Shown: positions 17,570 through 51,045 of the stretch, piece after piece
Layout of the letters: every line of letters begins with the position of its first letter
Position numbering within the stretch: the first letter of the stretch is position 1
DNA from: Nocardia fluminea
GTDB lineage: Bacteria > Actinomycetota > Actinomycetes > Mycobacteriales > Mycobacteriaceae
Assembly: GCF_002846365.1 (NCBI RefSeq)
Contig: NZ_PJMW01000001.1
Coordinates: forward strand, 124,001 to 188,000
DNA length: 64,000 nt
Direction: 5' to 3'
Made by a program: the position numbers and the translations under genes
Notes under the pieces: model-generated
Databases searched by the model: none
What the model saw: the letters and a program-made list of their open reading frames with translations, nothing else
What the model was told of the DNA's origin: nothing

Positions 17570-18988
17570 ATGGAATACACCCATCTCTCCGAATTCCGGA
17601 TCCGCTCCGGCGACCTGGTGATCTGGACCCCCGAACTCACCTCCCCCGACGCCTGGCGCGACGACGAACGCCCCCTCGCCAGCGTCCACGAGCAGTATCT
17701 CGGGTTCCTCGATCCCGACGACGCCCGTCCCGGCCGCGGCCGCTGGATCGGCACCATCTTCGAGATGGACGCCCCGCTCGACGCCGAAGCCTGGGCCACG
17801 ACCCTGCGCCTGTGGCACGACCGCCACGAGGGTTTCCGCACCACTGTCGCCCCCACCGGCGACGGCGGCTACCACCGTGTGAGCACCGCCCCGGGCACCG
17901 TGCGTGTCACCGGCGCCCCGGTCGCCGATCTCCACGACGGCGACGAGATCAACGAATACCTCTGCGACGCACTCGAATTGCGCCTGTCGGCGCTGGTGTG
18001 GCCGCATCTGCTGGTGGCCACGGTGGCCCACGACACCGACGACTTCACCGTCCTGGTCGGCGCGGACCACTCGGTGCTCGACGCCTACTCGCAGGCCGTG
18101 CTCATCCTCGAGCTGCGCACCCTCTACACCGCGGTCACCACCGGCGGCGAGATCCGCGACTCGGCCACCTTCGGCAGCCCCGCCGACTACGCCGTCATCG
18201 AGCGCGCGGCCGCCGAGGAACTCGACCCCGACTCCCCCGCCGTAGCCGTGTGGCGCGAATTCCTCGGTACGCCGGGCTCTCCCATGCCCCGCTTCGCCGC
18301 GGATCAGGTCGCCGTACTCGACGGTGAGCACGCCCAGCCCAGCGTCTCACGCACCCTGCTCAGCATCGAACAGCTCGAGGAAGTCGAGGCGGCGCTCGAT
18401 CGGCTCAAGCACCGGCTGTCGGTGACCGTGTTCGCCGCCCTGGCGATGGCCTCCCGGGAAACCTTCGGCGACAACCGGTTCCGCACCGTGATGCCGATCG
18501 CGACCAGGCCCGACCTCACCTGGCTCGAGTCGATGGGCTGGTTCGTCAATGTCGTCCCGGTCGATGTGACCCTGCCCCCAGGCGCGGACATGGCCGCGGC
18601 GCTCGACGCCACCCGCGCTTCCCTCAAGCGCGCCCACCTCTGCAACGACGCGTCCTGGGGCCGGTCCCTGGCCATGGTCGGCGCCGTGGAGGGTCCGACC
18701 TACGGTGCGTCCTTCCTCGACATCCGCATGCTGCCGGACTACGAATTGGTCGCCGACCTGCGGGGACGTACCCTGCGCGCGGTGTCGTACTCCACCGACG
18801 AGGTGTACTTCTGGGTCGTGCGCGGCCCCGACGGGCTCTACGTCTCCACCCGCCATCCCGCGGGCCTGCCCGGCGAGGTCATGGAACGCTTCCTCGCCGA
18901 GTTCGCCAGGGCCATGTACGCGGTGACGATGGTCGCGGCCGAACCCGCACCGGTCACCGATACCGCGGCAGCGCTGAGCGCGGGCTGA
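17570..18988 (+). CDS. PapA-like condensation-domain acyltransferase, cassette copy 1 gene 1
   Basis: The 472-residue protein has the condensation/PapA fold and a catalytic HxxxD in VLVGADHSVLDAYS. The usual first His and final Gly of HHxxxDG are replaced (DHSVLDA), but the base and Asp remain. Other fold elements are RGRWIGTIFEMDAPLD, WHDRHEGFRTTV and LDIRMLPDYELVADLRG. PapA enzymes transfer fatty or polyketide acyl groups to sugar or diol hydroxyls. The ATG has GAGGTGA upstream. It is closely similar to the protein at 44936-46444, for example the shared MEYTHLSEF start. The glycosyltransferase begins two bases after its stop. Donor and acceptor are unknown. Confidence 0.82.
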   Translation: MEYTHLSEFRIRSGDLVIWTPELTSPDAWRDDERPLASVHEQYLGFLDPDDARPGRGRWIGTIFEMDAPLDAEAWATTLRLWHDRHEGFRTTVAPTGDGGYHRVSTAPGTVRVTGAPVADLHDGDEINEYLCDALELRLSALVWPHLLVATVAHDTDDFTVLVGADHSVLDAYSQAVLILELRTLYTAVTTGGEIRDSATFGSPADYAVIERAAAEELDPDSPAVAVWREFLGTPGSPMPRFAADQVAVLDGEHAQPSVSRTLLSIEQLEEVEAALDRLKHRLSVTVFAALAMASRETFGDNRFRTVMPIATRPDLTWLESMGWFVNVVPVDVTLPPGADMAAALDATRASLKRAHLCNDASWGRSLAMVGAVEGPTYGASFLDIRMLPDYELVADLRGRTLRAVSYSTDEVYFWVVRGPDGLYVSTRHPAGLPGEVMERFLAEFARAMYAVTMVAAEPAPVTDTAAALSAG

Positions 18989-18990
18989 GC

Positions 18991-20247
18991 ATGCGTGCAC
19001 TGCTGGCCTTCACCGGCAGCCGGGGCGATGCCCAGCCCGGCATCCTCCTGGCTCGCGAGCTGCTGGCTCGCGGGCACTCGGTGACGCTCGCACTCTCGCC
19101 CAATCTCGTCGACTTCGCCACCGCGCACGGCATCGCCGCCGTAGGTTTCGGCCGCGACAGCGCCGAACTGCTGCGCACCCAGCACGACGATCACCGCTTT
19201 CGCAGTCCGAATCCGCGACAGCGGGTGCGTGCGGTGCTGGATCTGCAACGGCGCGGCGTCGCCGAGGCGGTGCGCGATCTGCTCGTTCTCGCACCCGGTC
19301 ACGATGTGCTCGTGACCGGAATGGCGGGCGAGGAGGCGGCCGAGAAGGCCGCGCGGCGCGTCGGGTTGCCGCTGGCCGCGGTGCACTTCTTTCCGATCCA
19401 TCCGAATCGCTCGGTGCCGGTGGTACCCACCGCGTGGGGCGCCCGCATCCCGAAAGCGCTCAACCGGCGGATCTGGTCGGCGTTGCGGTGGGCCAGAGAC
19501 GCCGCACTGGAACAACCGCTGTCGGAGTTCGGGATCGTCGAACATCAGCTGCCCGCCCGGGTGTCGATCCAGGCTTATGACGTCGACCTGTTTCCGGGGT
19601 TGGCGGCCGAGCTGCCGGATCGGCACCCGGTGACCGGTTTCGCCGTCGATGCCGACGGATTCCTCAGCGCCGCTGCCGATCCCGCGCTCACGGCGTGGCT
19701 GGACGCCGGTTCGGCGCCGATCTATGTGGGCTTCGGCTCGATGACGGTCGACGATCCGGGGGCGCTGGTGGCGATGCTGCGCACGGTCTGCGCCCGTCGT
19801 GGTCGCAGACTGCTGCTGGCCGCGGGATGGGCGGGCATCGACCCTGTCCTGTCGCCCGAGGTGGCGATCGTCGAACAGGTCGATCACGCGGCGGTGTTCC
19901 CGCGCTGTCTCGCCGCGGTGCACCACGGCGGCGCGGGCACGACCGCCGCGGCACTCAGAGCCGGTGTGCCGCAGGTGATCTGCGCGATCCAAGCCGATCA
20001 GCCGTACTGGGGCCGGGCGCTGGAGCGGCTCGGGATGGCCGGCACCGTGCGCGCAGGCGCACTCACCGAGGCCCAGCTCAGTGCCCTGCTCGACCGCGTC
20101 GCGGACCCGAACGTGGTCTCGCGGGCGGCCACCTACGCGAGCCGGTTCGCGGGGACCGGGGTGGCACGCGCGGCCGACGAGGTGGAATCTGTTGTCCCCC
20201 TGTCGTTCCCGAGTCCCGTTTCCATCCACGCCGGGAGGCAGCAATGA
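18991..20247 (+). CDS. GT1-family glycosyltransferase, cassette copy 1 gene 2
   Basis: The 418-residue enzyme has a GT-B fold. The N-terminus, MRALLAFTGSRGDAQPGILL, is typical of mycobacterial Gtf and macrolide glycosyltransferases. The C-terminal sugar-nucleotide site is AAVHHGGAGTTAAALRAGVP with IQADQPYWG. It should transfer a sugar from an NDP-sugar to a lipid or polyketide hydroxyl. It sits between an acyltransferase and an export pair, so the acceptor is probably the lipid that is acylated and exported. Its last four bases overlap the ABC ATPase start. Confidence 0.88.
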   Translation: MRALLAFTGSRGDAQPGILLARELLARGHSVTLALSPNLVDFATAHGIAAVGFGRDSAELLRTQHDDHRFRSPNPRQRVRAVLDLQRRGVAEAVRDLLVLAPGHDVLVTGMAGEEAAEKAARRVGLPLAAVHFFPIHPNRSVPVVPTAWGARIPKALNRRIWSALRWARDAALEQPLSEFGIVEHQLPARVSIQAYDVDLFPGLAAELPDRHPVTGFAVDADGFLSAAADPALTAWLDAGSAPIYVGFGSMTVDDPGALVAMLRTVCARRGRRLLLAAGWAGIDPVLSPEVAIVEQVDHAAVFPRCLAAVHHGGAGTTAAALRAGVPQVICAIQADQPYWGRALERLGMAGTVRAGALTEAQLSALLDRVADPNVVSRAATYASRFAGTGVARAADEVESVVPLSFPSPVSIHAGRQQ

Positions 20248-21197
20248 GTACCGACATCGCCGTCCGCACCCGAGGTCTCGGCAAGTCCTACGGCGACTTC
20301 ACCGCCGTCGGCAGCGTCGACCTCGGTATCGAGGCCGGATCGGTGTTCGCGATGCTCGGCCCCAACGGTGCGGGCAAGACCACGACCGTCCGCATGCTCG
20401 CCACCTTGCTGCGACCGGACCGGGGCAGCGCCGAGATCTTCGGCTACGACGTGGTGCGCGAGGCGACCGCGGTGCGCTCGATGATCGGGCTCACAGGCCA
20501 GTACGCCTCGGTCGACGAAACCCTCACCGCCGGTGAGAATCTGCGGCTGTTCGGACGGCTGCTCGGCCTGTCACGACGCGCCGCCGCGAGCCGGGCCGGG
20601 GAACTTCTCGAGGAATTCGAACTGTCGGCCGTCGCGCGCCGCAGCGTCAGCGCCTTCTCCGGCGGCATGCGACGTCGACTCGATCTCGCCGCGACCCTGA
20701 TCACGGTGCCGCCGCTGATCTTCCTCGACGAGCCGACCACGGGCCTGGATCCGCATACCCGCGACCGCATGTGGGGCATCGTGCGCGGACTGGTCGCGCG
20801 CGGCGCCACCGTGTTGCTCACCACCCAGTACCTGGAGGAGGCCGACGCACTCGCCGACCGGATCGCGGTCATCGACCGCGGCAGGATCGTCGCCGACGGC
20901 ACTCCCGCCGAACTCAAGTCCTCCATCGGTGAGCAGGTGCTACGCCTCGACATCCCCGACACCGCCGATCTGCGCCGGGCCGAGGCGCTGATCCAGGAGA
21001 TGACCGGCGATGTGCCGGAAGGGTCGTCGACAGGGACGCTGACCGTCGCGCTGCACGATGTCACGCACGGCGCCGACATCGTCGCCGCCTGTCGCGCCGA
21101 GGGCATCACGCTGCGCGGTTTCGCGGTGGACCGGCCCGATCTCAACGAAGTGTTCCTGTCGCTGACCGGGCACGCGCGCACCGTGGACGCGGCATGA
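20244..21197 (+). CDS. DrrA-like ABC exporter ATPase, cassette copy 1 gene 3
   Basis: The 317-residue protein has Walker A GPNGAGKTTT, signature FSGGMRRRLDLA, Walker B LIFLDEPTTGLD and the extra C-terminal DrrA domain (LRGFAVDRPDLNEVFLSLTG). DrrAB-type exporters move hydrophobic products; in mycobacteria DrrABC exports PDIM/PGL lipids. The ATG is preceded by GGGAGG, and the 3' end overlaps the permease gene by four bases. It is nearly identical in layout to the copy-2 ATPase at 47858. Confidence 0.93.
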   Translation: MSTDIAVRTRGLGKSYGDFTAVGSVDLGIEAGSVFAMLGPNGAGKTTTVRMLATLLRPDRGSAEIFGYDVVREATAVRSMIGLTGQYASVDETLTAGENLRLFGRLLGLSRRAAASRAGELLEEFELSAVARRSVSAFSGGMRRRLDLAATLITVPPLIFLDEPTTGLDPHTRDRMWGIVRGLVARGATVLLTTQYLEEADALADRIAVIDRGRIVADGTPAELKSSIGEQVLRLDIPDTADLRRAEALIQEMTGDVPEGSSTGTLTVALHDVTHGADIVAACRAEGITLRGFAVDRPDLNEVFLSLTGHARTVDAA

Positions 21198-22042
21198 CCA
21201 CCCTTCGCGAAAGTTCGAGGACCACCATGACCCGTACGGCCGAGAAGCCGCTCCAGGTGGTGCGCGCGCCACGCGTGACCCGCGTCGGTCCGCTTGCTGC
21301 CCTTCACCATTCGCTGATGATGGCGTGGCGCGGACTGCTCACCTTCCGGCACAGCCCGCAACTGCTCTACGACGCCATCCTGCTGCCGATCGTCGGCCCG
21401 GTGCTGTTCGGCAGCATCTTCGGCACCGCCATCGCGGGCAGCATGGCGGCCTATCTGCCGATCATGATTCCGGGCGTGCTGGTCCAGATCGTGCTCACCT
21501 CCTCGGTCGCCACCGGCGTGCAATTGTCCGAGGACATCCACTCGGGTGTCTTCGACCGCTTCGTCGCCATGCCGATCGCCCGCTCCGCACCGGTTGCCGG
21601 GGCATTGCTGGCCGGGGCGGTGCGCTACCTGATCGCCGCGACCACCGTCGTGATCGTCGGATTCTGTATGGGCTACCAACCCGCGCACACCGCCGGATTC
21701 CTGGCCGGCGCCGTTTTGGTCGTGGTCGCCACGACCGCCATCAGTTGGTTGTTCGCCTTCATCGGTGCCACCATCGCCCGCCCCGCCGCCGTGCAGGGCA
21801 TGTCCATGCTGGTGCTCACCTTCCTCGGCTTCGCCTCCAACGCCCTGGTCCCTGAGGAAGCCATGCCGACCTGGATGCGCCACGTCTCGGACCTGAACCC
21901 GGTGTCCTACCTGGTCTCGGCCGTACGCACCCTCGCCGCAGAGGGCACCGTCGGCGCCGATGCCTGGTGGTCGCTGGTCGCCTCGGTGGTCGTGGTCGCT
22001 GTTTTCGCGCCGTTGACCGTGCGCACCCTCCGTTCCCGCTAG
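21194..22042 (+). CDS. DrrB-like ABC-2 permease, cassette copy 1 gene 4
   Basis: The 282-residue membrane protein belongs to the ABC-2 family. Six hydrophobic segments follow a soluble N-terminus, and the family signature region includes IPGVLVQIVLTSSVATGVQL, DIHSGVFDRFVAMPIARSAP and LNPVSYLVSAVRTLA. It would pair with the preceding ATPase as a homodimeric or two-subunit exporter. The start overlaps the ATPase stop (ATGA). An alternative internal ATG at 21227 is possible. Confidence 0.92.
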   Translation: MTTLRESSRTTMTRTAEKPLQVVRAPRVTRVGPLAALHHSLMMAWRGLLTFRHSPQLLYDAILLPIVGPVLFGSIFGTAIAGSMAAYLPIMIPGVLVQIVLTSSVATGVQLSEDIHSGVFDRFVAMPIARSAPVAGALLAGAVRYLIAATTVVIVGFCMGYQPAHTAGFLAGAVLVVVATTAISWLFAFIGATIARPAAVQGMSMLVLTFLGFASNALVPEEAMPTWMRHVSDLNPVSYLVSAVRTLAAEGTVGADAWWSLVASVVVVAVFAPLTVRTLRSR

Positions 22043-22117: not shown

Positions 22118-23494
22118 ATGACCCTCATTGCCCCCGCCCTCGCGGTGTCCACCGAGCTCAACCGGATCACCGCCGACGACGACCTGTTCTTCAAACTGCA
22201 CAGCCTCTACCCCAACGCCCTGGTCAACCAGCTGGCATACCGCTTCGACAGCGCGCTGAGCCGGGACCTGCTCGCCGACTGGCACGCGCACCTGGCGACC
22301 GGATTCATCGCCCGCCGGGTCCGCACCACGCGCTTCCCGATCGCCCGCGCGCACTGGGAGCCCGCCACCGAATCCCTGCCGCTGCACTGGTCGGACACCC
22401 CGATTCCCGAGGACCGTGTCCTCGACTGGTTCCTCGAGCAGGCCGCCGTCGAATTCGACCCCGAGCGCGGGCTCGTGTGGCAGCTCGCGGGCGCCCCGCT
22501 CGAATCCGGCGGCACCGTCGTCACTCTGGTCGCCTCCCATGTCGCATGTGACGGCGGCGGCATGATGCACGCGATCGTCGACTCGCTGGACCGGCTCAAC
22601 CGTGGCGAGTCACCCGACCGCTCGGCCAGTGCGGGCAGACTCGTCGGCCCGATCGCGGGCAGGGGTCGTTTCGCCGCCGACCTCGCCGATGCCCGCGGGC
22701 AGCTGCGTGCCGTGGCTCGCGGGGTGCGCGCGGCTCGCCGGGCCCGCGGGGTCAGCGAACCGGCCCGCAACCCCCGCCCAGCCGAACCCCGGCTGCCCCA
22801 CGCCGACACCTGGCAAGCCGCCGAAGCCATCGTCCAACTCGACCTCGCCGAATGGGACGCCGTCGCCACCGCACACGGCGGCACCACCAACGGCCTGCTG
22901 ATCGGCGTCGCAGTCGGGCTGCTCGGTCGCAGTGGCCGCATCGCCGACGGCGCGCAAGTCCGCGTCGACATCCCGCACTCGATGCGCGAGGCCGACGACC
23001 CACGCGCCAACGCCACCACCGGACTACCGATCAGCGTCAGCTACCACGCCGGCGAACGCGCCGATCTGCCCGCCGTCCGCGCCGCCCTCAAAGCAGCCGG
23101 CCGCGCCTACCGCGACCCGGCCACCATCCCACCCATCCAACACCTGCAACCGGTACAGATGCTGCTACCGAAAATGGTGCTGCACAAATTCGCCCGCACC
23201 GCCAAAGCCCCGGAATGCCTGTGCACCAACATGGGTCGCACCGCCCAGAACATCGCGACCCTCGGCACACACCACGCACGCGACGTCATCATGCGCCCAG
23301 TGGTCAACCCCGGCCCCGTCGAGCTGTTCCGCCAGGTCGAGGTCGGCATCAATCTCGCCTTCTCCTGCGACGACGACACCGTGACATTGGTAGTCACGGG
23401 CGGCGACCCCGACCGCTTCCCCACCCGCGCGGCGCTGCGCGAGCTGCTGGCCGCCGAATTCGCGGACTGGGGGCTGACGCCACGGTTCTGGTGA
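22118..23494 (+). CDS. Condensation-like acyltransferase with HxxxDG motif, cassette copy 1 gene 5
   Basis: The 458-residue protein has a CoA-dependent acyltransferase fold and a catalytic SHVACDGGG. Other landmarks are NRITADDDLFFKLHSLYPN and VRVDIPHSMR-like DIPHSMREADDPRANATTGL. It is more like PapA/WS-DGAT-type enzymes than NRPS condensation domains because it stands alone. The ATG is preceded by AGGAG. Together with gene 1 the cassette has two distinct acyltransferases for one glycosyltransferase, which fits a diacylated glycolipid product. It converges on the DUF779 gene with a four-base gap. The substrate is inferred only. Confidence 0.82.
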   Translation: MTLIAPALAVSTELNRITADDDLFFKLHSLYPNALVNQLAYRFDSALSRDLLADWHAHLATGFIARRVRTTRFPIARAHWEPATESLPLHWSDTPIPEDRVLDWFLEQAAVEFDPERGLVWQLAGAPLESGGTVVTLVASHVACDGGGMMHAIVDSLDRLNRGESPDRSASAGRLVGPIAGRGRFAADLADARGQLRAVARGVRAARRARGVSEPARNPRPAEPRLPHADTWQAAEAIVQLDLAEWDAVATAHGGTTNGLLIGVAVGLLGRSGRIADGAQVRVDIPHSMREADDPRANATTGLPISVSYHAGERADLPAVRAALKAAGRAYRDPATIPPIQHLQPVQMLLPKMVLHKFARTAKAPECLCTNMGRTAQNIATLGTHHARDVIMRPVVNPGPVELFRQVEVGINLAFSCDDDTVTLVVTGGDPDRFPTRAALRELLAAEFADWGLTPRFW

Positions 23495-23498: not shown

Positions 23499-23897
23499 CT
23501 AGGAGGCTTCCCCGACGACGCCGGCAGCTGATTCGACCTGGTCGATCCGCAGCGCGAACCGGAATCCGCACGCCGCCTCGAGCGAGGCCGAACCCGCTTG
23601 CGGACGGTTGCGCACCTCGATGCTGACGTCGAGGTCGTCGAACCCGACATGAAATCGGTCCGCCATCCACAACTGGGTGTGCCACGCCGTCTGCCCGGCC
23701 AGGACGTCGCCTGCCTCGGGACGAAAGTCCTCGCGCCGGACACAGACCGGGGTGTACCCGTCGGTGTCGGGCGCCAGGTACAGCACCACCGGGCCGTGCA
23801 TCTCGCGCAGCAGCCTGAGCACCCGCAGCGCATCATCGCTGGCCTCGACCGCACGGTGACGGTGATCTACCTTGCGGCCGTGGGGATGTCGAACCAT
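23499..23897 (-). CDS. DUF779-family protein lacking the usual cysteine pair
   Basis: The 132-residue sequence follows the DUF779 pattern: EASDDALRVLRLLREMHGPV, then an acidic/Cys segment, then DVLAGQTAWHTQLWMADRF and LDVSIEV. In family members, which often accompany aldehyde dehydrogenases, the central segment usually contains GGCCDGS. Here it reads LAPDTDGYTPVC, so the paired cysteines are replaced while a later Cys remains. GGAG lies six bases before the ATG. There is no aldehyde dehydrogenase next to it. Function is unknown; a metal or redox role seems less likely for this variant. Confidence 0.68.
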   Translation of the reverse strand: MVRHPHGRKVDHRHRAVEASDDALRVLRLLREMHGPVVLYLAPDTDGYTPVCVRREDFRPEAGDVLAGQTAWHTQLWMADRFHVGFDDLDVSIEVRNRPQAGSASLEAACGFRFALRIDQVESAAGVVGEAS

Positions 23898-24054
23898 GGT
23901 GCACTCCTCGCAAACTCTCGACGTGATCGCATTCGGAGCACACTATGGTGGCGCAAGGTTGGTCCAGGGTTGGTGTCGGGGCGATTTCGCGAAGATCATC
24001 TCCGTGGCGTCGACGCCGTGGAATCCGAGCGCGCGCTCGACGTTGACTACTGAT

Positions 24055-25059
24055 ATGGCACTCGAATCGGTTCGCTTCTCGATCCTGGACCGCTCCCGCG
24101 TGCGGCGTGGGCAGGACCACGCCGACGCCCTGCGGGAGACGGTGGCGTTCGCGGTGCTGGCCGAGCAGTGGGGCTATCACCGGTTCTGGGTCGCCGAACA
24201 CCACAGCGTTCCCGGTGTCGCCGGTACTGCGCCGACCGTGCTGGCGGCGGCGGTCGCGGCGGCCACCTCGCGCATCCGCGTCGGCACCGGTGGGGTGATG
24301 TTGCCCAATCATCAGCCCCTTGTCGTCGCCGAGCAGTTCGGCGTGCTCGGGGCGCTGTTTCCCGGCCGGATCGACATGGGCCTCGGTCGTTCGGTCGGCT
24401 TCACCGACGGCGTGCGCCGCGCGCTCGGCCACGACCTCGACGACGCCGACGACATCGACGCACGCCTCACCGAGGTCCTCGAGTATTTCGCATCCGGCAG
24501 GAAGGGCGTGCACGCCGGCTCCGCGGAGAACGTGGATGTTCCGGCATTCCTGCTCGCCACCGGTTCCGGGGCCGAGCGCGCCGCGCGATTCGGCCTGCCG
24601 CTGGTGATCGCCCCCCTCGCGGGCACGCAGGCGATGGTCGACGCGATCGAGCGGTACCGCACACTGTTCCAGCCCTCGGACCGGACCCCACGACCCTATG
24701 TCGTGGTCTCCGCGACGGCGATGATCGCCGATACGACCGAGCAGGCGCGCCGGCTGTTGCTGCCCGAGGCCTGGGCGAGCGCCTACTCGCGCACGCACGG
24801 TGAGTTCCCCGCGCTCATACCACCCGCGGACATCGACCCGGCGGCGATGACCGATCGGCAGCGTCACCTGTTCGAGCAGGCACTCGGCAACCAGATCCAC
24901 GGCACCGAGGACCAGGTAGCCGAAGCGCTGGAGAACCTGGTGAGCAGCACCGACGCGGATGAAATCCTCGTCCACACCAGCACTTTCGATCGAGCGGCTC
25001 GGCTGGATTCACATCGACGGCTGGCTCGCGTCGTCGGACTGCGGAGTTGGTTCTCGTAG
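24055..25059 (+). CDS. LLM-class flavin-dependent oxidoreductase (MsnO8-like)
   Basis: The 334-residue protein is a bacterial-luciferase-like TIM-barrel flavoenzyme. It has SILDRSRVRRGQ at the start and EQWGYHRFWVAEHHSVPGVA, followed by GTGGVMLPNHQPLVVAEQFG and GRIDMGLGRSVGF. The C-terminal segment GTEDQVAEALENLVSSTDAD is also typical. Such enzymes use reduced FMN or F420. No good ribosome site precedes the ATG at 24055, so the start may be leaderless or slightly wrong. It lies between cassette copy 1 and nltA, separated from nltA by 374 bases. A role in lactone lipid tailoring is possible but unsupported. Confidence 0.83.
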   Translation: MALESVRFSILDRSRVRRGQDHADALRETVAFAVLAEQWGYHRFWVAEHHSVPGVAGTAPTVLAAAVAAATSRIRVGTGGVMLPNHQPLVVAEQFGVLGALFPGRIDMGLGRSVGFTDGVRRALGHDLDDADDIDARLTEVLEYFASGRKGVHAGSAENVDVPAFLLATGSGAERAARFGLPLVIAPLAGTQAMVDAIERYRTLFQPSDRTPRPYVVVSATAMIADTTEQARRLLLPEAWASAYSRTHGEFPALIPPADIDPAAMTDRQRHLFEQALGNQIHGTEDQVAEALENLVSSTDADEILVHTSTFDRAARLDSHRRLARVVGLRSWFS

Positions 25060-25433
25060 ACAAAGTTTACCGAACCACTTTTGCTCTCAAAACAAAGCCG
25101 CTGGACCGGTAATTCATTCGACGGTGTAAACGATCGTGAGGTCACTCACTACGCGTGCACCGTTCTGCGGCATCGCACCGCCACGGCGAGGCGGCTCCGA
25201 CCGATAGCCGTAGTATTGCCGACAGCCACGGCAACGCCCCGCGTGCAGGTGATACGCCGGAATCGGACTGATTGCGGAAGTTTCCGTAACATGTTGTCGC
25301 ACACAGTAGTTCGCGTCGCGCAGTGGACTGGATCACAGCACTCGATGCCCGTCGGTGGCCGGTAGGGTTCGATTCCACCGGCGCTCGCGATTCGGCCGGC
25401 AAACCATTCTTCAGACCGCATCCGGGAGCTCAC
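25060..25433. other. 374-base intergenic region upstream of nltA
   Basis: No protein gene is supported here. The start of the region is AT-rich (about 25064-25130). A small dyad, GTGAG-GTCA-CTCAC, lies at 25136-25149, and an AACATGTT palindrome at 25288-25295. Either could belong to the control region of the nlt operon. The sequence between them looks non-coding on both strands. Confidence 0.5.
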
Positions 25434-26483
25434 GTGTCACAATCGCGTTTCGAATCCATCGGGGCATATCTTCCGTCGAACATCTTGTCCACCACCGAAT
25501 TGATCTCCCGGCTGAAAACGCCGCCGTCGTTCGATCTGGAGCGCATCACCGGCGTGAAAGAGCGCCGCGTGCGAGACACCCGCCCGGAGTCGGTCGAGGA
25601 CTCGTTCACCCTGGCCGTCAACGCGGCGCGCGACTGCCTGTCGCGCTCGCGCTACGCGCCCGGCGAGCTGGACGTGATCATCTCGTGTTCGATCACCCGC
25701 AGCAACGACGGCACCCGCATGTACATGGAGCCCTCGTTCGCCTCGACGATCGCCAAGACCCTCGGCGCCGAGCACGCCATCACCTTCGACGTGTCCAACG
25801 CCTGCGCCGGAATGCTCACCGGCACATACATTCTCGATCGGATGATCCGTTCGGGAGTGGTGCGCAACGGCATGGTGGTCAGCGGCGAGGCGATCACCCC
25901 GATCGCCGAGACCGCGGTGAACGAGATCTCGGAGAAATACGATCTGCAGTTCGCTTCGCTGTCGGTGGGCGACTCCGGGTGCGCGGTCGTGCTGGACCGC
26001 GCGGTCGACGACGCCGACAAGATCCACTACATCGAATTGCTCACCGCCGCCGAGCATTCGCACCTGTGCCTGGGTATGCCCAGCGACAAGTCCTCGGGTG
26101 TTGCGCTCTACACCGACAACCGCAAGATGCACAACGAAGCGCGGTTCCTGCTCTGGCCCGACGCCCAGGGCACCTTCCTCGAACAGCAGGGCCGCGACTT
26201 CGCCGGCGAGCAGTTCGACTACATCATCCATCACCAGTTCGGTGCCGCCGCGGTGCCTTACATCAACGCGGTGGCCGCTCGCGAGTTCGGCGCCGAGATG
26301 CCGCCGGACCTCAACGTGATCGAGAAGTACGGAAACACCTCGACCACTTCGCATTTCATCGTTCTGCACGATCAGCTCGCCGACGACAACATCGCGGCGG
26401 GATCGAAACTGCTCATGGTGCCCGCCGCGTCCGGCGTCGTCGCGGGATTCCTGTCCGCCACCATCTCCTCCCTGAAGGTCTGA
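25434..26483 (+). CDS. nltA: OleA-like thiolase subunit NltA, with catalytic triad
   Basis: The 349-residue protein is a KAS III/OleA-type thiolase that joins two long-chain acyl-CoAs head-to-head. The nucleophile is C124 in FDVSNACAGM. The His is in IIHHQFGAA (H266/H267), and the Asn is N301 in YGNTSTTSH. E99 in MYMEPSFA matches the position of the OleA general base. The GTG start has GGGAG five bases upstream; an earlier in-frame ATG adds non-conserved residues. It starts the operon nltA-nltB-nltC-nltD, which has the same composition as the nocardiolactone cluster described in Nocardia. Confidence 0.88.
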   Translation: MSQSRFESIGAYLPSNILSTTELISRLKTPPSFDLERITGVKERRVRDTRPESVEDSFTLAVNAARDCLSRSRYAPGELDVIISCSITRSNDGTRMYMEPSFASTIAKTLGAEHAITFDVSNACAGMLTGTYILDRMIRSGVVRNGMVVSGEAITPIAETAVNEISEKYDLQFASLSVGDSGCAVVLDRAVDDADKIHYIELLTAAEHSHLCLGMPSDKSSGVALYTDNRKMHNEARFLLWPDAQGTFLEQQGRDFAGEQFDYIIHHQFGAAAVPYINAVAAREFGAEMPPDLNVIEKYGNTSTTSHFIVLHDQLADDNIAAGSKLLMVPAASGVVAGFLSATISSLKV

Positions 26484-26491: not shown

Positions 26492-27391
26492 ATGGGCATT
26501 CGCATCCGAGCCACGGGCACGAGTAGGTCCACCGACACCCACAGCGTCGTCACGCACAGCGGGCGCGCCGCCGCGCAATGTCTGGAACGGGCCGGTGTGC
26601 GCCCCGACCAGGTCGGCGTGCTGATCAACACCGGCGTCTTCCGCGACTCGAACACCGTCGAACCGGCGGTGGCCGCGTTGATCCAGAAGGCGGCCGGTAT
26701 CGGGCTCGACTACACCAGAAACGATCCGCGGACCTTCTCCTTCGATCTGATGAACGGCGCGGTCGGCGTCGTCAATGCCGTCCAGGTGGCGGGCTCGGTC
26801 CTGGCCACCGGTAGCACCGAGCACGTCCTGATCGTCGCCGGCGACACTCATCCGTCGCTGGCGCGATCGAGCGCCGACGCCGAATTCCCCTACGCCACCT
26901 CGGGTGCCGCGCTGCTACTCGAGCAGGTCGACGGCGCCGAGGGCTTCGGCCCGGTGTTCACCGCGACCGCTCCCGGCACTCCCGCGGGACAGGCCTACGT
27001 CGACACGGCCGCCATGGGCACCGTCGGGCGAACGCTGATGACGGTCGAGCGCGAACCCGACTTCGAGGACCGCGTCCTCGAGGTGGCCGTCGCAGTCGCG
27101 CACTCCGCGCTCGCCGACCTCGACGGCGCCTTCGTCGCGTTGATCGCGTCCACGCCGAGCCCGCGTTTCCCGGGTCGGCTGGCCGACGCGCTCGACATCG
27201 ACCGCGACGCGGTACGGGTGCCCGACCTGGCCGACGGCGACCCGCACACCGCCGCGCTGCCGTTGGCCTACGCCCGCGCGAGCGCCGAGGGCACCCTCAC
27301 CGGCTACACCCACGTGCTGTTCGTCGCCGCGGGCGCGGGTCCTTCCGCCGCCGCGACGCTGTACCGGCTCCCCGCGGAGACCACCGCGTGA
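26492..27391 (+). CDS. nltB: OleA-like partner subunit NltB, active-site Cys replaced
   Basis: This 299-residue thiolase-fold protein aligns with NltA, but the cysteine position is alanine (A90 in FDLMNGAVG against FDVSNACAG). The His and Asn positions are also not conserved. A glutamate is retained in NTVEPAVAAL (E57). In the lipstatin pathway a comparable pair, LstA and LstB, works as a heterodimer in which one subunit has the catalytic triad and the other contributes the base; I infer the same here. The ATG lies eight bases after nltA, and the stop overlaps nltC by ATGA-type four bases. Confidence 0.85.
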   Translation: MGIRIRATGTSRSTDTHSVVTHSGRAAAQCLERAGVRPDQVGVLINTGVFRDSNTVEPAVAALIQKAAGIGLDYTRNDPRTFSFDLMNGAVGVVNAVQVAGSVLATGSTEHVLIVAGDTHPSLARSSADAEFPYATSGAALLLEQVDGAEGFGPVFTATAPGTPAGQAYVDTAAMGTVGRTLMTVEREPDFEDRVLEVAVAVAHSALADLDGAFVALIASTPSPRFPGRLADALDIDRDAVRVPDLADGDPHTAALPLAYARASAEGTLTGYTHVLFVAAGAGPSAAATLYRLPAETTA

Positions 27392-38846: not shown

Positions 38847-38911
38847 TGCGCGCGCGTCGCCTCGACATCGAGTTCATGCGAGTGGTGAGCAGCTCCTGTC
38901 CCGGGCAGCGA
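38846..38911 (+). other. Leader-like Cys-containing frame between monooxygenase and dioxygenase
   Basis: An ATG overlapping the monooxygenase stop (TGATG) opens MRARRLDIEFMRVVSSSC followed by PGQR. The R-R-x-D-I-x-x-x-R-V-x-x-x-x-C spacing resembles the ssuA leader peptide and the general actinobacterial leader pattern. However, there is no stop soon after the Cys; the frame stays open into the dioxygenase gene in another reading frame. It may be a variant leader, a remnant, or chance. Confidence 0.4.
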
Positions 38912-38951
38912 TCCCGCCCCGGCACCAGACCTCCCACGAAGGACCACCGAC

Positions 38952-39887: not shown

Positions 39888-39895
39888 GAACCGTC

Positions 39896-39926
39896 GCGGT
39901 GCCCGCACCTTCGGGTCGGGCACCGC
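39896..39926 (+). terminator. Very stable hairpin with TTCG tetraloop after the dioxygenase gene
   Basis: GCGGTGCCCG pairs with CGGGCACCGC, with an inner ACC-TTCG-GGT stem and one bulged C. The total is 13 base pairs capped by a UUCG-type loop, starting nine bases after the dioxygenase stop. No U-tract follows. It may stop transcription, or reduce it before the flavoprotein-ferredoxin pair, or protect the upstream mRNA's 3' end. Confidence 0.65.
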
Positions 39927-39981
39927 ATCCCTCGGCCCTCGGTGGCCGCAACCCCCACGCGCGACACATACAGGAGCACAC

Positions 39982-44935: not shown

Positions 44936-46444
44936 ATGGAATACACCCACCTGTCCGAATTCGAAATCCGTTCAGGCGCTCTGTCGATGTGGACGCCCGA
45001 ACTCGCCGCCGACGCGTGGCAGCCCGATGATCGCCCGCTCACCAGCGTGCACACCGACTACTGCGCGAGCGTCGATCCCACCGATCCGCTGCCCGGTCGC
45101 GGCCGCTGGATCGGCACCGCCTTCGAGATGGATGCCCCGCTCGACCGCCGCGGCTGGCGTGAGACGCTGCGGCGCTGGCATGCCAGGCACGAGGGCCTGC
45201 GCACCACGGTGACCATCGCGTCGCCGGGCCAGGCGCGCAGGCTCGTCGCCGCGCCCACCGCCGTCGACATCGCCGAACAGCCCGTCGCCGCGATCACCGA
45301 CGGCACCCGCATCAACGAATTCCTCCGCGGCACGCTGGAAGAGCGCCTGTCGCCACTGGTGTGGCCGCACTGCCTCGCCGCCACGGTCGAGCACGCCGAC
45401 ACCGCCGACTTCACGGTGCTCGTCGCGGCCGATCACTCCGTCATGGACGCCTACGCGCAGGCGATCCTGATCCTCGAACTGCGCACGCTCTACCGCGAGG
45501 TCATGGCGGGCGAGGCGCCGCGCGAGTCGGTCACCTTCGGCAGCGCGGCCGACTTCGCCGTCCTGGAGCGAGCGAGCGCGGCCGAACTGGGTCCGGACTC
45601 CGCCGCGGTGGCGACGTGGCGCGAATTCCTCGCCGACGGTGCCATGCCGCGCTTCGCCCCGCAGGCCCAGCGGCCCGCTCGCGCGGATCTGCCCCAACCC
45701 AGTGTGTCGCGACGGCTACTCGATCTCACCGAACTCGAGCAGGTCGAAGCGGCCCTCGACCAGGTGCGGCACCGGATGTCGGTGGCGGTGTTCGCCGCGT
45801 TGGCGGTGGCCAATCAGCAGCGGTTCGGCGCGGACCGGATGCGTACCGTCATGCCGATCGCGACCCGTCCTGACCTGCGCTGGATGGAGTCGATGGGCTG
45901 GTTCGTCAATGTGGTCCCGGTCGATATCGCGCTGACTCCCGGTGTCGGCGTCGTCGCGGCCATGGATCTGGCGCGGGCCGCGTTGCGTCGTTCGCGCACC
46001 GCCAACGACGCCTCCTGGTCGCGTGTACTCGACCTGCTCGGTGTCGCCGAGACGCCGCGTTTCGGCATCTCCTTCCTCGACATCCGCGTGCTGCCCGGCT
46101 ACGAATTGGTCGCCGACCTGCGCGGACGGACCTTGCGCGCCGAGTCGTACTCCCCCGACGAGGTGTTCTTGTGGGTGGTGCGCGCGGCGGACGGTCTCTA
46201 TGTGTCGACCCGCTATCCCGCGGGGTTCCCCGCCGAGGTGATGGACGAGTTCCTCACCGCTTTCGGTCACGCGCTGTCGTCGATCACCGCCACGGTGCAC
46301 GCGAACCCTGTCGTCGGGGAGGCTCGAGAGGGACAACCGTCCGCGGCGGCTCATGTGGGTGCGACGGACGGGCGTTGCGAACTGCCACAGAACGCCCGAG
46401 CGCTGCACACCGACACGCTGCGTGTCGCCGTGCAGGCGAGGTGA
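44936..46444 (+). CDS. PapA-like condensation-domain acyltransferase, cassette copy 2 gene 1
   Basis: The 502-residue paralogue of the protein at 17570 shares MEYTHLSEF, RGRWIGTAFEMDAPLD, VAADHSVMDAYAQAILILEL and LDIRVLPGYELVADLRGRTL. HxxxD is retained as DHSVMDA. It is about 30 residues longer at the C-terminus, with a polar tail after GHALSSITATVHANP. The ATG is preceded by GAGGTGA as in copy 1. It likely acylates a related but perhaps not identical acceptor. Confidence 0.82.
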   Translation: MEYTHLSEFEIRSGALSMWTPELAADAWQPDDRPLTSVHTDYCASVDPTDPLPGRGRWIGTAFEMDAPLDRRGWRETLRRWHARHEGLRTTVTIASPGQARRLVAAPTAVDIAEQPVAAITDGTRINEFLRGTLEERLSPLVWPHCLAATVEHADTADFTVLVAADHSVMDAYAQAILILELRTLYREVMAGEAPRESVTFGSAADFAVLERASAAELGPDSAAVATWREFLADGAMPRFAPQAQRPARADLPQPSVSRRLLDLTELEQVEAALDQVRHRMSVAVFAALAVANQQRFGADRMRTVMPIATRPDLRWMESMGWFVNVVPVDIALTPGVGVVAAMDLARAALRRSRTANDASWSRVLDLLGVAETPRFGISFLDIRVLPGYELVADLRGRTLRAESYSPDEVFLWVVRAADGLYVSTRYPAGFPAEVMDEFLTAFGHALSSITATVHANPVVGEAREGQPSAAAHVGATDGRCELPQNARALHTDTLRVAVQAR

Positions 46445-46448: not shown

Positions 46449-47861
46449 ATGCGCGCACTGTTGGCTTTCACCGGCAGCCGCGGCGACGCCCAGCCGGGCA
46501 TTCTGCTGGCTCGTGCGCTGCGCGAGCGCGGTCACGACGTGACGTTGGCGCTGGCACCGAACCTCGTCGCTTCGGCCCACGACCATCAGATTCCCGCAGT
46601 GCCCTTCGGCTGCGACACCGCCGAACTGCTCGACGCGCAGCGCGCCGACCATCGGTTCGCCGACCGCGATCCGCGCGCCCGGTTGCGGGCGCTGTTCGAT
46701 CTGCAACGGCGTGGAGTACCCGAGCAGCTCGAGGACCTGCGCGCGCTGGCCCCCGGACACGATCTGGTGGTCGCGGGGATGGCAGGCGAGGAAGCCGCGG
46801 AGTCGGTGGCGCAGGCGCTCGGACTGCCGTTCGCGGCGGTGCACTTCTTCCCGATTCAGCCCAACGACGCGGTCCCGGTCGCGCCGATGCGCTGGGCGGT
46901 CGGCCTCCCTGGGTTCGTGCACCGATGGGGATGGTCGGCGCTGGCCCGCGCACGGGCGGCCGCGCTGGCATCCGTGCTACCGACCAGGCCTCGGCCCGCT
47001 CACTCGGGGAACGCTTCCGCCAATGCCGACCAGGAAGTGGCGACTGCGCGAATCCAGGCCTATGACCACCGGTTGTTTCCCGGCGTGCGGCGGCAGCTGC
47101 CGGGACCGTTCACGGGATTCATGATCGATGTGGACGGATTCCTCACCGGAGCAACGGGTTTCGCGGGCCGCCCACCAGCCGGCCCCCACAACGAACCCGA
47201 GACTGCCCAGTTACTCGCAATATCCGATCCTTCCAGTGCCACAACACTTTTCGATACCTACTCGCCTTCGTCTGCTCGACTGCGGTCGTCTACGACTTCC
47301 CTCGAGTCGTGGCTCGATGCGGGAACCGCGCCGATCTATGTCGGGTTCGGTTCGATGGATGTCGGCGACCCGGCCGCTTTCGTCGCGATGGTGCGCGAAG
47401 TGTGCGCCGGGCGCGGTCGCCGGCTGCTGCTCGCCTCGGGCTGGGCGACGATCGCTGCCGGATTCGAGGACACCGTCGCGATCGTCGGTCAGGTCGATCA
47501 CGCCCGGGTCCTGCCTCGTTGTGTCGCGGCCGTGCACCACGGTGGCGCCGGCACCACCGCCGCGGCACTGAGAGCGGGTGTGCCACAGGTGATCTGCTCG
47601 GTGCAGGCCGACCAGCCCTACTGGGGCCAGGCATTGCGGCGGCTAGGCCTCGCGGCCACGATGCCCGCGAAGAAGCTGACCGCCGAACGCCTCGACGCAC
47701 TACTCGATCAGGTCTCGCGTCCCGACGTCATCGACCGTGCCGCGTCCTACGCCGCCGATTTCGCCACCGACGGTGTCGAGCGGGCCGCCGATGCCGTCGA
47801 GGCACTGCTGGGTTCACCGATCGCCCCTGAACTGCTCCGTTCCGCCGGGAGGCACCTGTGA
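46449..47861 (+). CDS. GT1-family glycosyltransferase, cassette copy 2 gene 2, with internal insertion
   Basis: The 470-residue paralogue of the enzyme at 18991 has the same ends (MRALLAFTGSRGDAQPGILL and AAVHHGGAGTTAAALRAGVP with VQADQPYWG). It is 52 residues longer. Most of the extra length is about 45 residues between DGFL and SWLDAGTAPIYVGFGS, a Ser/Thr/Pro-rich, less GC-rich stretch (about 47145-47310) that is absent in copy 1. It sits between the N- and C-terminal domains and could change acceptor access or be neutral. Four bases overlap the ATPase gene. Confidence 0.86.
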   Translation: MRALLAFTGSRGDAQPGILLARALRERGHDVTLALAPNLVASAHDHQIPAVPFGCDTAELLDAQRADHRFADRDPRARLRALFDLQRRGVPEQLEDLRALAPGHDLVVAGMAGEEAAESVAQALGLPFAAVHFFPIQPNDAVPVAPMRWAVGLPGFVHRWGWSALARARAAALASVLPTRPRPAHSGNASANADQEVATARIQAYDHRLFPGVRRQLPGPFTGFMIDVDGFLTGATGFAGRPPAGPHNEPETAQLLAISDPSSATTLFDTYSPSSARLRSSTTSLESWLDAGTAPIYVGFGSMDVGDPAAFVAMVREVCAGRGRRLLLASGWATIAAGFEDTVAIVGQVDHARVLPRCVAAVHHGGAGTTAAALRAGVPQVICSVQADQPYWGQALRRLGLAATMPAKKLTAERLDALLDQVSRPDVIDRAASYAADFATDGVERAADAVEALLGSPIAPELLRSAGRHL

Positions 47862-48805
47862 GTACCGACATCGCCATCCGCACCACCGGTCTGGGCAAGT
47901 CCTACGGCGATTTCACCGCCGTCGGCAGCGTCGACCTCACCATCGCGGCGGGGACCGTCTTCGCCCTGCTCGGCCCCAACGGCGCGGGCAAGACCACGAC
48001 CGTGCGCATGCTCGCGACGCTGGTTCGTCCCGATCGCGGCTCCGCCGAGATCTTCGGCTACGACATCGCGCGCGACGCGACCGCCGTGCGCTCGATGATC
48101 GGGCTCACCGGCCAGTACGCCTCGGTCGACGAAACCCTCACCGCCGGTGAGAATCTGCGGCTGTTCGGCCGCTTGCTCGGACTTTCCCGCCGCGATGCCG
48201 CCCGCCGCAGCGTCGAACTGCTCGCGGAGTTCGAGCTGTCGCAGGTCACCGACCGGCCGGTGAATCAGTTCTCCGGTGGGATGCGCCGGCGGCTCGACCT
48301 GGCGGCGACACTGATCACCGATCCGCCGCTGATCTTCCTCGACGAGCCGACCACCGGCCTCGACCCGCACACCCGCGACAAGATGTGGGGCGTGATCCGG
48401 CGTCTCGTCGCCCGCGGCGCGACCGTGCTGCTCACCACGCAATACCTCGAAGAGGCCGACGCGCTGGCCGACCGGATCGCCGTCATCGACCGAGGAGCGA
48501 TCGTCGCCGAGGGCACCGCGGCCGAGCTGAAGTCCTCCATCGGCGATCAGGTGCTTCGCCTGGAACTCGCCGACCCCGCCCAGTCCGCCCACGCGGAGTC
48601 TATCGTCGTCTCGCTCACCGGCGAGGTGCCGGAAGGGTCGTCGGCGGGCATGCTCACCGTCGCGCTCACCGATGCGGGCACCGCCGCCGACATCGTCGCC
48701 GCCTGCCGCGCCGCGGGCATCGCACTGCGCGGATTCGCTGTCGACCGACCCGATCTCAACGAGGTCTTCCTCGCGCTGACCGGCACCGACCGCGTCGCCG
48801 CCTGA
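47858..48805 (+). CDS. DrrA-like ABC exporter ATPase, cassette copy 2 gene 3
   Basis: The 315-residue ATPase starts at a GTG overlapping the glycosyltransferase stop. It has GPNGAGKTTT, FSGGMRRRLDLA, LIFLDEPTTGLD and the DrrA C-terminal domain (LRGFAVDRPDLNEVFLALTG). It differs from the copy-1 ATPase by scattered substitutions, so the two are old paralogues rather than a recent duplication. Confidence 0.93.
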   Translation: MSTDIAIRTTGLGKSYGDFTAVGSVDLTIAAGTVFALLGPNGAGKTTTVRMLATLVRPDRGSAEIFGYDIARDATAVRSMIGLTGQYASVDETLTAGENLRLFGRLLGLSRRDAARRSVELLAEFELSQVTDRPVNQFSGGMRRRLDLAATLITDPPLIFLDEPTTGLDPHTRDKMWGVIRRLVARGATVLLTTQYLEEADALADRIAVIDRGAIVAEGTAAELKSSIGDQVLRLELADPAQSAHAESIVVSLTGEVPEGSSAGMLTVALTDAGTAADIVAACRAAGIALRGFAVDRPDLNEVFLALTGTDRVAA

Positions 48806-48825: not shown

Positions 48826-49662
48826 ATGACTGCCACCATCGCCGAGAGCACCGTCGAGCGCACCACACCACCGACGATCGAACGCCGTCCCCGCATCACC
48901 CACGTCAGCCTGCGCGCCTCGCTGTTCCAGTCACTGATGATGGCATGGCGAGGACTGCTCACCTTCCGGCACAGCCCGCAGTTGCTCTACGACGCGCTAC
49001 TGCTGCCCATCGTCGGGCCACTGCTGTTCGGCAGCATCTTCGGCACCGCCATCGCGGGCAGCATGCAGGCGTACCTGCCGATCCTGATTCCCGGCGTACT
49101 GGTGCAGATCGTGCTGACGTCGTCGGTCGCCACCGGAGTGCAACTGTCCGAAGACATTCGGTCCGGCGTCTTCGATCGGTTCGTCGCCATGCCGATCGCC
49201 CGGTCCGCACCGGTCGCCGGCGCGCTGCTGGCCGGCGCGACCCGGTATGTCATCGCCGCGACCACGGTGGTGATCGTGGGATTCGCGATGGGTTACCGGC
49301 CCGATCATCCGGCCGGGCTCGTCGCCGGGGCGGTGCTCGTCGTCCTGGCGACCACCGCGATCAGCTGGCTGTTCGCGTTCATCGGCGTCACCGTGTCCAG
49401 ACCCGCCGCCGTGCAGGGCATGTCGATGCTGGTGCTCACCTTCCTGAGTTTCGCGTCCAACGCGTTGGTGCCCGAGTCGGCCATGCCGACCTGGCTGCGT
49501 TATGTCTCCGACTACAACCCGGTGTCCTACCTGGTCTCCGCGGTGCGCAGGCTCGCCGAAGACGGCGTCATCGGCACCGACGCCCTGTGGTCGGTGGTGG
49601 CCTCCCTCGTGATCGCCGCCGTCTTCGCACCCCTGACCGTCCGCACCCTGCGTGCTCGCTGA
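48826..49662 (+). CDS. DrrB-like ABC-2 permease, cassette copy 2 gene 4
   Basis: The 278-residue permease has the same six-helix ABC-2 layout as copy 1, including IPGVLVQIVLTSSVATGVQL, DIRSGVFDRFVAMPIARSAP and NPVSYLVSAVRRLAEDG. The ATG follows the ATPase stop by 20 bases with CGAGG upstream; copy 1 has an ATGA overlap instead. It should work with the ATPase at 47858. Confidence 0.92.
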   Translation: MTATIAESTVERTTPPTIERRPRITHVSLRASLFQSLMMAWRGLLTFRHSPQLLYDALLLPIVGPLLFGSIFGTAIAGSMQAYLPILIPGVLVQIVLTSSVATGVQLSEDIRSGVFDRFVAMPIARSAPVAGALLAGATRYVIAATTVVIVGFAMGYRPDHPAGLVAGAVLVVLATTAISWLFAFIGVTVSRPAAVQGMSMLVLTFLSFASNALVPESAMPTWLRYVSDYNPVSYLVSAVRRLAEDGVIGTDALWSVVASLVIAAVFAPLTVRTLRAR

Positions 49663-49671
49663 GGAGTTCTG

Positions 49672-51045
49672 ATGACACGCACCATCTCGACCCCACCCGT
49701 CATCGACGGAGTCGGCGTCAACCGGCTCACCGCCGACGACGACCTGTTCCTCAAGCTGCACAGCCTCTACGGCAACGCGCTGGTCAATCAGCTGGCCTGG
49801 CGGTTCGACGAGGCACTCGACCCCGAGCTGCTCACCCGCTTCCACGCCCATCTGGCCGAAGGGTTCCTGGCGCGGCGCGTGCAACCGGTCCGGGTTCCGT
49901 TCGCCCGCCCCTACTGGCTGCCTGCCACCGAATCGCTACCGCTGGTATGGGATTCGGCGCCGGTCGCCGACGACGAAATGCTGGACTGGTACTTCGCGCA
50001 GAGCCGGGTCGACTTCGATCCCACCACCGGTCAGGTGTGGCGGCTGTCCGCGGCGCCGACCACGACCGGCGGGACGCTGGTGTCGCTGGTGACCTCGCAC
50101 GTGGCCTCCGACGGTGGCGCGGTGCTGTTCGCCGTGGGCGACGCACTGGCCCGGCTCGACGAACGTCCGGACTTCGCGGCGGGCTCTGGCCAGCTGGTCG
50201 GGACAGAGCCGCGGAACCCGTTGAGCGCGAACCTGATCGATGCGGGCCGACAGCTGCGCGCGGTCGCGAAAGGCATTCGCGCGGCGATCGCCACCCGTGG
50301 CGTCGTCGAGCCGGAACGCAACCTTCGTCCCGAGCTCCCGCTGCTGCCCTTGCCGAACCGGTGGTCCCCGGCCGACCCGGTGGTCCAGCTCGATCTCACG
50401 GAGTGGAATGCCGCTGCCACAAGGCATTCCGGCACCACGAACGGACTCCTGATCGCCCTGGGCGCCGGTATCCTCGGCCGCAGCGGGCGGGTCGGCGACA
50501 CCGCAGGCATCCGCGTCGACATCCCGCATTCGATGCGCACTTCCGGCGATCCGCGCGCCAATGCCACCACCGGCTTGCCGATCTCGGTCACCTATCGCGC
50601 CGGCGAACGCATCGACCTCGCCGCCGTGCGCTCGGCCGTGAAGCGTGCCGCCACCGCCTACCGCGACCCCGCGACCACGCCCGCTCTGCAACACCTCCAA
50701 CCGTTGCAGATGGTCCTGCCCCGTTTCGTCCTCCGCCATTTCGCCCGCACCGCGAAGGCCCCGGAATGCCTGTGCACCAACCTCGGCGAAACCGCCAGTG
50801 GCGTGGCCGATTTCGCGGGCCACCACGCCTCCGCCGTCCTCATGCGACCGGTCGTGTGCACCAATGACACCGACATGTTCCGTCGCGTGGAGGTAGGTGT
50901 GAACCTGTCCTTCTCCACCGACGGCCACACGGTCACCTTGGCGGTCACCGGTGCCGACCCCGACCGCTTTCCCAGCCGCGCCGCGCTGCGCGAGTTGTTG
51001 TCGACAGAATTCGAGTCATGGGGCCTGACGCCCAGCTTCTGGTGA
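49672..51045 (+). CDS. Condensation-like acyltransferase with HxxxDG motif, cassette copy 2 gene 5
   Basis: The 457-residue paralogue of the protein at 22118 has SHVASDGGAV as the catalytic motif and the same NRLTADDDLFLKLHSLYGN start and DIPHSMRTSGDPRANATTGL segment. It begins nine bases after the permease stop with GAGGAG upstream, so it is in the same operon. The end converges on the flavoprotein at 51057. The function is inferred from motif and context, as for copy 1. Confidence 0.82.
   Translation: MTRTISTPPVIDGVGVNRLTADDDLFLKLHSLYGNALVNQLAWRFDEALDPELLTRFHAHLAEGFLARRVQPVRVPFARPYWLPATESLPLVWDSAPVADDEMLDWYFAQSRVDFDPTTGQVWRLSAAPTTTGGTLVSLVTSHVASDGGAVLFAVGDALARLDERPDFAAGSGQLVGTEPRNPLSANLIDAGRQLRAVAKGIRAAIATRGVVEPERNLRPELPLLPLPNRWSPADPVVQLDLTEWNAAATRHSGTTNGLLIALGAGILGRSGRVGDTAGIRVDIPHSMRTSGDPRANATTGLPISVTYRAGERIDLAAVRSAVKRAATAYRDPATTPALQHLQPLQMVLPRFVLRHFARTAKAPECLCTNLGETASGVADFAGHHASAVLMRPVVCTNDTDMFRRVEVGVNLSFSTDGHTVTLAVTGADPDRFPSRAALRELLSTEFESWGLTPSFW

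Follow-up and report, generated by a model that had tools for sequence, protein, structure and literature searches.

Does the close neighborhood of lipid genes at a bacterial locus indicate a common pathway? The question is raised by a 64,000-nucleotide stretch of the Nocardia fluminea genome (8.06 Mb, G000), which covers positions 124001–188000 of contig C1 and is called the window in the following. The window carries two cassettes of five genes, each encoding two acyltransferases (AT1 and AT2), a glycosyltransferase (GT), and a DrrA/DrrB-type exporter, and between them lie the beta-lactone lipid genes nltABCD and a further acyltransferase gene, AT6. An initial annotation had proposed that the nlt enzymes supply a lipid to the cassettes for glycosylation, acylation, and export. 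Our comparisons lead to another explanation, to which we assign a probability of about 0.57: each cassette would be a self-contained operon for an acylated cell-surface glycolipid of the trehalolipid/acyl-sugar kind, and nltABCD-AT6 would constitute a separate pathway. The genes concerned are listed below (percentages are BLASTP amino-acid identities; WS/DGAT, wax ester synthase/diacylglycerol acyltransferase):

17570..18988, + strand: cassette 1 AT1, PapA-like condensation-type acyltransferase (Pfam Condensation, 5e-13; PDB PapA2 6aef, 1.8e-15)
18991..20247, + strand: cassette 1 GT, GT1-type glycosyltransferase of 418 amino acids (EryCIII-like_C, 3e-14; PDB matches GtfA/GtfB and sterol glucosyltransferase)
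20244..21197, + strand: cassette 1 DrrA-type ABC ATPase (TIGR01188, 349 bits)
21194..22042, + strand: cassette 1 DrrB-type permease (ABC2_membrane, 1.6e-24)
22118..23494, + strand: cassette 1 AT2, acyltransferase of the condensation/PapA/WS-DGAT fold (motif SHVACDG)
23896..25059, + strand: LLM1, luciferase-like flavin monooxygenase (PF00296)
25323..26483, + strand: nltA, OleA/FabH-like thiolase with Cys (NACAG; ACP_syn_III)
26492..27391, + strand: nltB, OleA-like partner (FabH-type NCBIfam models), Cys apparently replaced (LMNGAVG)
27388..29046, + strand: nltC, OleC-like beta-lactone synthetase of the ANL superfamily (AMP-binding, 4e-56)
29043..30086, + strand: nltD, OleD-like 2-alkyl-3-oxoalkanoate reductase (NF042422 match)
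30153..31355, + strand: AT6, stand-alone acyltransferase of the condensation/PapA5 fold (motif FHGVMDG)
44936..46444, + strand: cassette 2 AT1 (Condensation, 1.1e-13; 62% to cassette 1 AT1)
46449..47861, + strand: cassette 2 GT, 470 amino acids (EryCIII-like_C; 56% to cassette 1 GT)
47858..48805, + strand: cassette 2 DrrA (81% to cassette 1 DrrA)
48826..49662, + strand: cassette 2 DrrB (80% to cassette 1 DrrB)
49672..51045, + strand: cassette 2 AT2 (61% to cassette 1 AT2)

One argument is that the two units are separable: nlt does not adjoin cassette 1 in 9 of 17 genomes, and 40 of 40 further nlt loci as well as 18 of 18 divergent cassette loci come without the other unit in the stretch covered. 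A window-type cassette 1, defined by an AT2 of at least 75% identity, was found in 17 of 148 Nocardia genomes. nlt lies beside it in eight of them (the window, N. alba, N. salmonicida, N. mangyaensis, N. rosealba, N. coubleae, N. ignorata, and N. caishijiensis), whereas in another eight it lies elsewhere, either ~230–690 kb away on the same contig (G020, N. sp. AG03, and N. camponoti) or on a different contig (N. rhizosphaerihabitans, N. sp. MH4, two N. neocaledoniensis genomes, and one metagenome-assembled genome), and in N. thailandica, which carries cassette 1, it was not found. The linkage across Nocardia that the initial annotation suggested to examine thus holds for about half of these genomes, and the claim that nlt supplies the lipid of the cassettes is not supported by the other half or by the further loci. 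On the other hand, the two units are not always unlinked, a pattern that the initial annotation would have taken as refutation, so the units may be coupled in some species. The arrangement of the window, with nlt between both cassettes, occurs in 4 of the 17 genomes. A block of sulfonate/taurine-type genes lies between the cassettes in seven (the window and six relatives), and both cassettes flank this block without nlt in G020, N. sp. AG03, N. rhizosphaerihabitans, N. sp. MH4, and N. neocaledoniensis DSM 44717; the sulfonate/taurine-type operon is about as regular a cassette neighbor as nlt. A VTT gene precedes cassette 1 in 14 of the 17 genomes and mutA lies beyond it in 13, the stretch or contig ending first elsewhere. 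In the metagenome-assembled genome (85% complete), LLM1 still stands between the cassettes with nlt elsewhere, and it is perhaps a trace of the departure of nlt. In genome G032, 1.8 Mb lie between nltC and the cassette AT2.

The 40 further nlt loci, chosen mostly on long contigs out of ~100 and covered over 20 kb each, contain no gene at cassette-level identity, and a 26% AT1-like match was seen in two. Likewise, no nlt gene was found at the 18 divergent Nocardia cassette loci (14–20 kb each), where all five gene types are present in 14 cases, one locus at a contig end shows only a weak AT1, and three lack some of the genes. The comparison corrects a tempting inference, as adjacency does not show a single pathway here, and the juxtaposition of cassette and nlt, although real, is probably a neighborhood effect. 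Some cassettes deviate in composition: L053, L054, and L055 carry extra acyltransferases, and L055 (N. stercoris) has three AT2 genes in a row, next to which DrrAB was not found. An AurF-type and an FMO-like gene lie near most of the divergent cassettes L039–L047, as judged from a Pfam scan of one member each.

The two cassettes of the window (17570–23494 and 44936–51045) share the gene order AT1-GT-DrrA-DrrB-AT2 and the direction, and within each, the gaps between genes do not exceed 75 bp, some genes overlapping. The initial annotation had regarded the cassettes as paralogous, and the BLASTP identities of 56–81%, together with 72–73% identity in the aligned pieces of DNA, bear this out; judged from these alignments, the likeness is homology and not chance. 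The cassettes are probably diverged duplicates whose products would be related glycolipids. The count of two stands for the window only, as the source genome has a third cassette on the reverse strand at C2:5271490–5277388, which shares 84–95% identity with cassette 1 on four genes (AT2 94–95%) and 79% on the GT. Within the 40 kb examined there, nltABD were not found, and only ANL matches of 25–26% to NltC were obtained. A nonribosomal peptide synthetase (NRPS) module of the type C-A-T-TE (condensation, adenylation, thiolation, thioesterase) lies ~9 kb from the third cassette. The cassette 2 GT is ~50 residues longer than its cassette 1 counterpart, apparently by a mid-protein insert.

Pfam and NCBIfam models and fold models uphold the gene identities given by the initial annotation for the acyltransferases, the GT, DrrAB, and nltABCD, and functions of the PapA, Gtf, and DrrAB kind are consistent with the assembly of a glycolipid. 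The first His of the HHxxxDG motif is replaced in AT1, AT2, and AT6, and the catalytic His and Asp of the condensation fold are present; in the cassette AT1 motif DHSVLDA, the second His and the Asp are kept. AT2 had no match in Pfam or, by sequence, in the PDB, where the single match of AT6 was meaningless. Fold comparison, which had been proposed before for relating the acyltransferases to PapA, was more informative: the structures predicted by AlphaFold2 for AT6 and for the AT2 of cassette 1 match the condensation/PapA fold. AT1 reached 23.8 bits on the PapA5 model NF006787 (cut-off 396), AT2 and AT6 not being among the matches listed, and AT2 reached 25.8 bits on the WS/DGAT model TIGR02946, under the cut-off of 310, with the fold nonetheless alike. 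Database names listed for the Nocardia relatives of AT2 are only hypothetical protein or diacylglycerol O-acyltransferase. DrrA lies above the cut-off of the daunorubicin-exporter model TIGR01188 (312), and DrrB, which matched ABC2_membrane, gave 75 bits on TIGR00025, below the cut-off of 146.9. The top NCBIfam model of the GT is the rifamycin-inactivating Rgt with 97 bits at a cut-off of 800, so the GT is not a member of that family.

How could such a cassette function on its own? In the model that we favor, the GT1 enzyme would add the sugar, the PapA-like AT1 and the WS/DGAT-like AT2 would transfer acyl groups from ordinary acyl-coenzyme A to the sugar or sugar-lipid, and DrrAB would export the product through the membrane. 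The transferred acyl chains would make up the hydrophobic parts, and therefore neither a polyketide synthase (PKS) nor a beta-lactone enzyme would be required, and the cassette could be duplicated. nltABCD-AT6, which adjoins cassette 1 only in some related species, would make nocardiolactone or one of its esters. In line with the initial annotation, no PKS or NRPS scaffold synthase was found among the window genes scanned, and the nearest strong ketosynthase is ~670 kb away on the same contig C1. The idea that this status is special to the window locus was rejected, as the genes picked in 23 other cassette stretches (L019+L020, L031, and L038–L058; frames cut by stretch ends are missed in this count, and 20 flanking proteins were Pfam-scanned in all) include two frames of more than 1000 amino acids, the NRPS module near the third cassette and a UPF0182 protein. 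Mycobacterial glycolipid loci combine PapA, Gtf, and DrrABC. The window resembles them in its PapA-like acyltransferase, GT1 glycosyltransferase, and DrrA/DrrB-type exporter, but it differs in coming without a PKS or other scaffold synthase, in the WS/DGAT-like nature of the second acyltransferase, and in the compact five-gene operon that has been duplicated.

Further support comes from the relatives of the cassette genes in other genera. The impression from a protein search that AT2 is confined to Nocardia was ruled out by a profile search, in which relatives at E 1e-30 or better appeared in 201 of the 301 genomes searched across the family, Nocardia included. A search of plasmid records gave just three matches, weak and partial. 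Among 19 loci of other genera, taken from the best AT2-matching genomes of the family, GT, AT1, and AT2 stand together in 13 (six genus codes), eight of which also have DrrA and DrrB, and the other six are without the GT; nlt was not found at any of the 19. Ten flanking proteins of four of these loci comprise carboxyl-transferase, rhodanese, biotin-ligase, esterase (two loci), and others. In the R. fascians-like genus code g6, whose AT2 matches a named protein of R. fascians at 83% identity, the set consists of four AT1 genes, a GT, and two AT2 homologues, the AT1 start spacings being 1495/1378/2925, or 1435/2868 if the third gene starts at the next in-frame codon. These values resemble the spacing of 1478/1434/2911 in the papA3-papA1-papA3-papA3 cluster of Rhodococcus sp. 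I2R, whose papA genes are described by the authors of the study as the closest homologues of the succinoyl trehalolipid acyltransferase TlsA, an assignment that is itself predicted (PMC8396431). The g6 set shares its enzyme types with the Nocardia cassettes, which, unlike the I2R cluster, mostly have one AT1 (some two) and carry DrrAB in the operon. We infer that the Nocardia cassettes are members of an acyl-sugar glycolipid operon family. Apparently, they represent an undescribed glycolipid-type operon family in Nocardia; no paper on these cassettes was found among the titles and abstract beginnings listed in searches of the open-access literature, a scope that leaves out most subscription papers. 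If the model is true, the cassettes would be a genetic handle on an acylated glycolipid that may be produced, with no adjoining PKS, in 44 of 148 Nocardia genomes.

Several observations weigh against this explanation. The AT1, GT, and AT2 of the Nocardia cassettes share only ~23–44% identity with the sets of other genera, so the product class may differ. The link to I2R (PMC8396431) is one of spacing and gene size rather than sequence, and no gene for trehalose or sugar-nucleotide synthesis or use was noticed next to either cassette of the window. In eight genomes, nlt is kept immediately behind cassette 1 in the same orientation, which could mean selection for co-inheritance. Moreover, when cassettes were called by an AT2 homologue of at least 44% identity (44 of 148 Nocardia genomes, with an AT2 in two pieces in G128 counted) and nlt by an AT6 of at least 54%, nlt was present in 39 of 44 cassette genomes versus 62 of 104 others (manual counts; Fisher p 4e-4, kinship ignored). 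The test that removes this signal has only six independent pairs, taken from an rpoB tree that covers 113 of these 148 genomes (for the 35 left out, no full-length best rpoB match was listed or no sequence was retrieved); on average 0.8 pairs went the same way and 1.2 the opposite way, and six are too few to reach 0.05 whatever the outcome. The co-occurrence is not upheld once relatedness is allowed for, in a test of low power. The linked or unlinked state needs three changes on the rpoB tree and two on the nlt and cassette trees, several forks of these trees being open, which leaves room for one origin or more and for gain as well as loss.

A rival view, confined to some species, holds that the nlt enzymes produce a beta-lactone or a beta-hydroxy acid lipid, to be glycosylated, acylated, and exported by the cassettes. 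Besides the common slot and strand in eight genomes, it is favored by the presence of nlt in 16 of the 17 cassette-1 genomes, and its chemistry has a precedent, as an OleA-GT-OleC-P450-OleD cluster of A. atraurantiacus has been proposed to give a glycosylated beta-lactone (PMC7064751). The likeness lies in beta-lactone enzymes with a nearby glycosyltransferase gene, but that GT is inside the ole cluster, whereas the Nocardia GTs are part of cassettes that mostly have no adjoining nlt. Close relatives hold both units far apart or on other contigs, cassettes occur without nlt in N. thailandica and in other genera, the tree test was null, and LLM1 separates cassette 1 from nltA, with gaps of 401 bp before and 263 bp behind it. 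To our knowledge, no glycosylation site is known on nocardiolactone, which is named a dialkyl-substituted beta-lactone in a title in the reference list of PMC7413640. A shared pathway is thus improbable, a glycosylated beta-lactone is unlikely as the product, and we consider it more doubtful still that in the window species, N. alba, N. salmonicida, N. mangyaensis, and the N. ignorata group an AT6-esterified nlt product is glycosylated, acylated, and exported by the cassette as a glyco-beta-lactone lipid with a core of two Claisen-condensed fatty acids.

Two other explanations dispense with nlt. The cassettes might glycosylate and esterify a carotenoid or another terpenoid alcohol, for which speak the resemblance of the GT sequence to sterol glucosyltransferases and the carotenoid glycosides and glycoside esters reported from Nocardia and Rhodococcus (PMC7413640); however, no carotenoid gene was recognized beside the cassettes read, with flanks scanned in part, and an exporter and two acyltransferases exceed the need, which leaves this option about as improbable as a shared pathway. 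Least likely of all is self-protection, in which GT and acyltransferases would inactivate an antibiotic or foreign compound and DrrAB would pump it out. The best NCBIfam model of the GT and the DrrA score point in this direction, but the GT is far under the Rgt cut-off, and an envelope lipid fits better with several paralogous full cassettes per genome, one inherited site beside mutAB, and PapA-like acyltransferases. An acylated glycolipid made by self-contained cassettes is, for these reasons, the explanation that we prefer.

This leaves nlt and AT6 as a unit of their own. The nlt genes are OleA-, OleA-, OleC-, and OleD-like in that order, nltC with 534 bits on NF045786 (cut-off 900) and nltD with 212 bits on NF042422 (cut-off 580), and no oleB, encoding the beta-lactone decarboxylase, was found in a search confined to the cluster genes at 23896–31355. 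They resemble the nocardiolactone cluster nltABCD of Robinson et al. in Nocardia, which comprises two OleA-like thiolases, an OleC-like synthetase, and an OleD-like reductase. What differs is the AT6 gene behind nltD and, in eight genomes, the position beside a glycolipid-type cassette. All 40 further nlt loci have nltA-B-C-D-AT6 in order, with AT6 directly after nltD, and because they do so without a cassette, AT6 belongs to nlt and not to the cassettes. LLM1 was found at none of the 40, and it is the upstream neighbor of nlt in some close relatives. The NltC query has matches in 150 of 150 Nocardia genomes, as expected of the ANL superfamily, and matches at orthologue level in ~100; AT6 at the level of at least 54% identity occurs in 101 of 148. 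Relatives of AT6 are mostly named peptide synthetase in the database, and the nearest one with a species name, from N. fluminea, is 95% identical. Going by its conserved place, AT6 is perhaps an overlooked fifth nocardiolactone gene, and a possible role is the last step of nocardiolactone biosynthesis. Lipstatin is an ester, and AT6 suggests that the true end product of nlt may likewise be one, a point that may outweigh the cassettes in importance. nlt has been published as the nocardiolactone cluster with 36 homologous clusters (PMC7413640). In three other Nocardia (L150, L155, and L156), nlt lies ~4–5 kb from meaB, on the opposite side of the mut genes compared with the window.

A promoter and terminator scan of 17200–33700 gave nothing above chance. 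The initial annotation had named neither LLM1 nor any gene between AT6 and cassette 2; the latter part, ~13 kb taken up mainly by the genes at 33601..41574, contains the following:

31939..33600, − strand: PLP-dependent enzyme (PF00291); coordinates are those of the open frame, with a provisional start
33601..41574, + strand: IclR, NMT1-type binding protein, ABC ATPase, permease, luciferase-like monooxygenase, TauD, and FAD enzyme (Pfam)
38952..39887, + strand: the TauD dioxygenase of this block (Pfam)
after the FAD enzyme and before cassette 2: 2'-5' RNA ligase-like gene

The frames 38846–39985 and 43633–44283 look spurious, the TauD frame being the real gene in the former region. From the families, the genes at 33601..41574 would form a sulfonate/taurine-type operon under IclR that stands outside the lipid pathway, as the combination of TauD with importer families suggests organosulfur scavenging.

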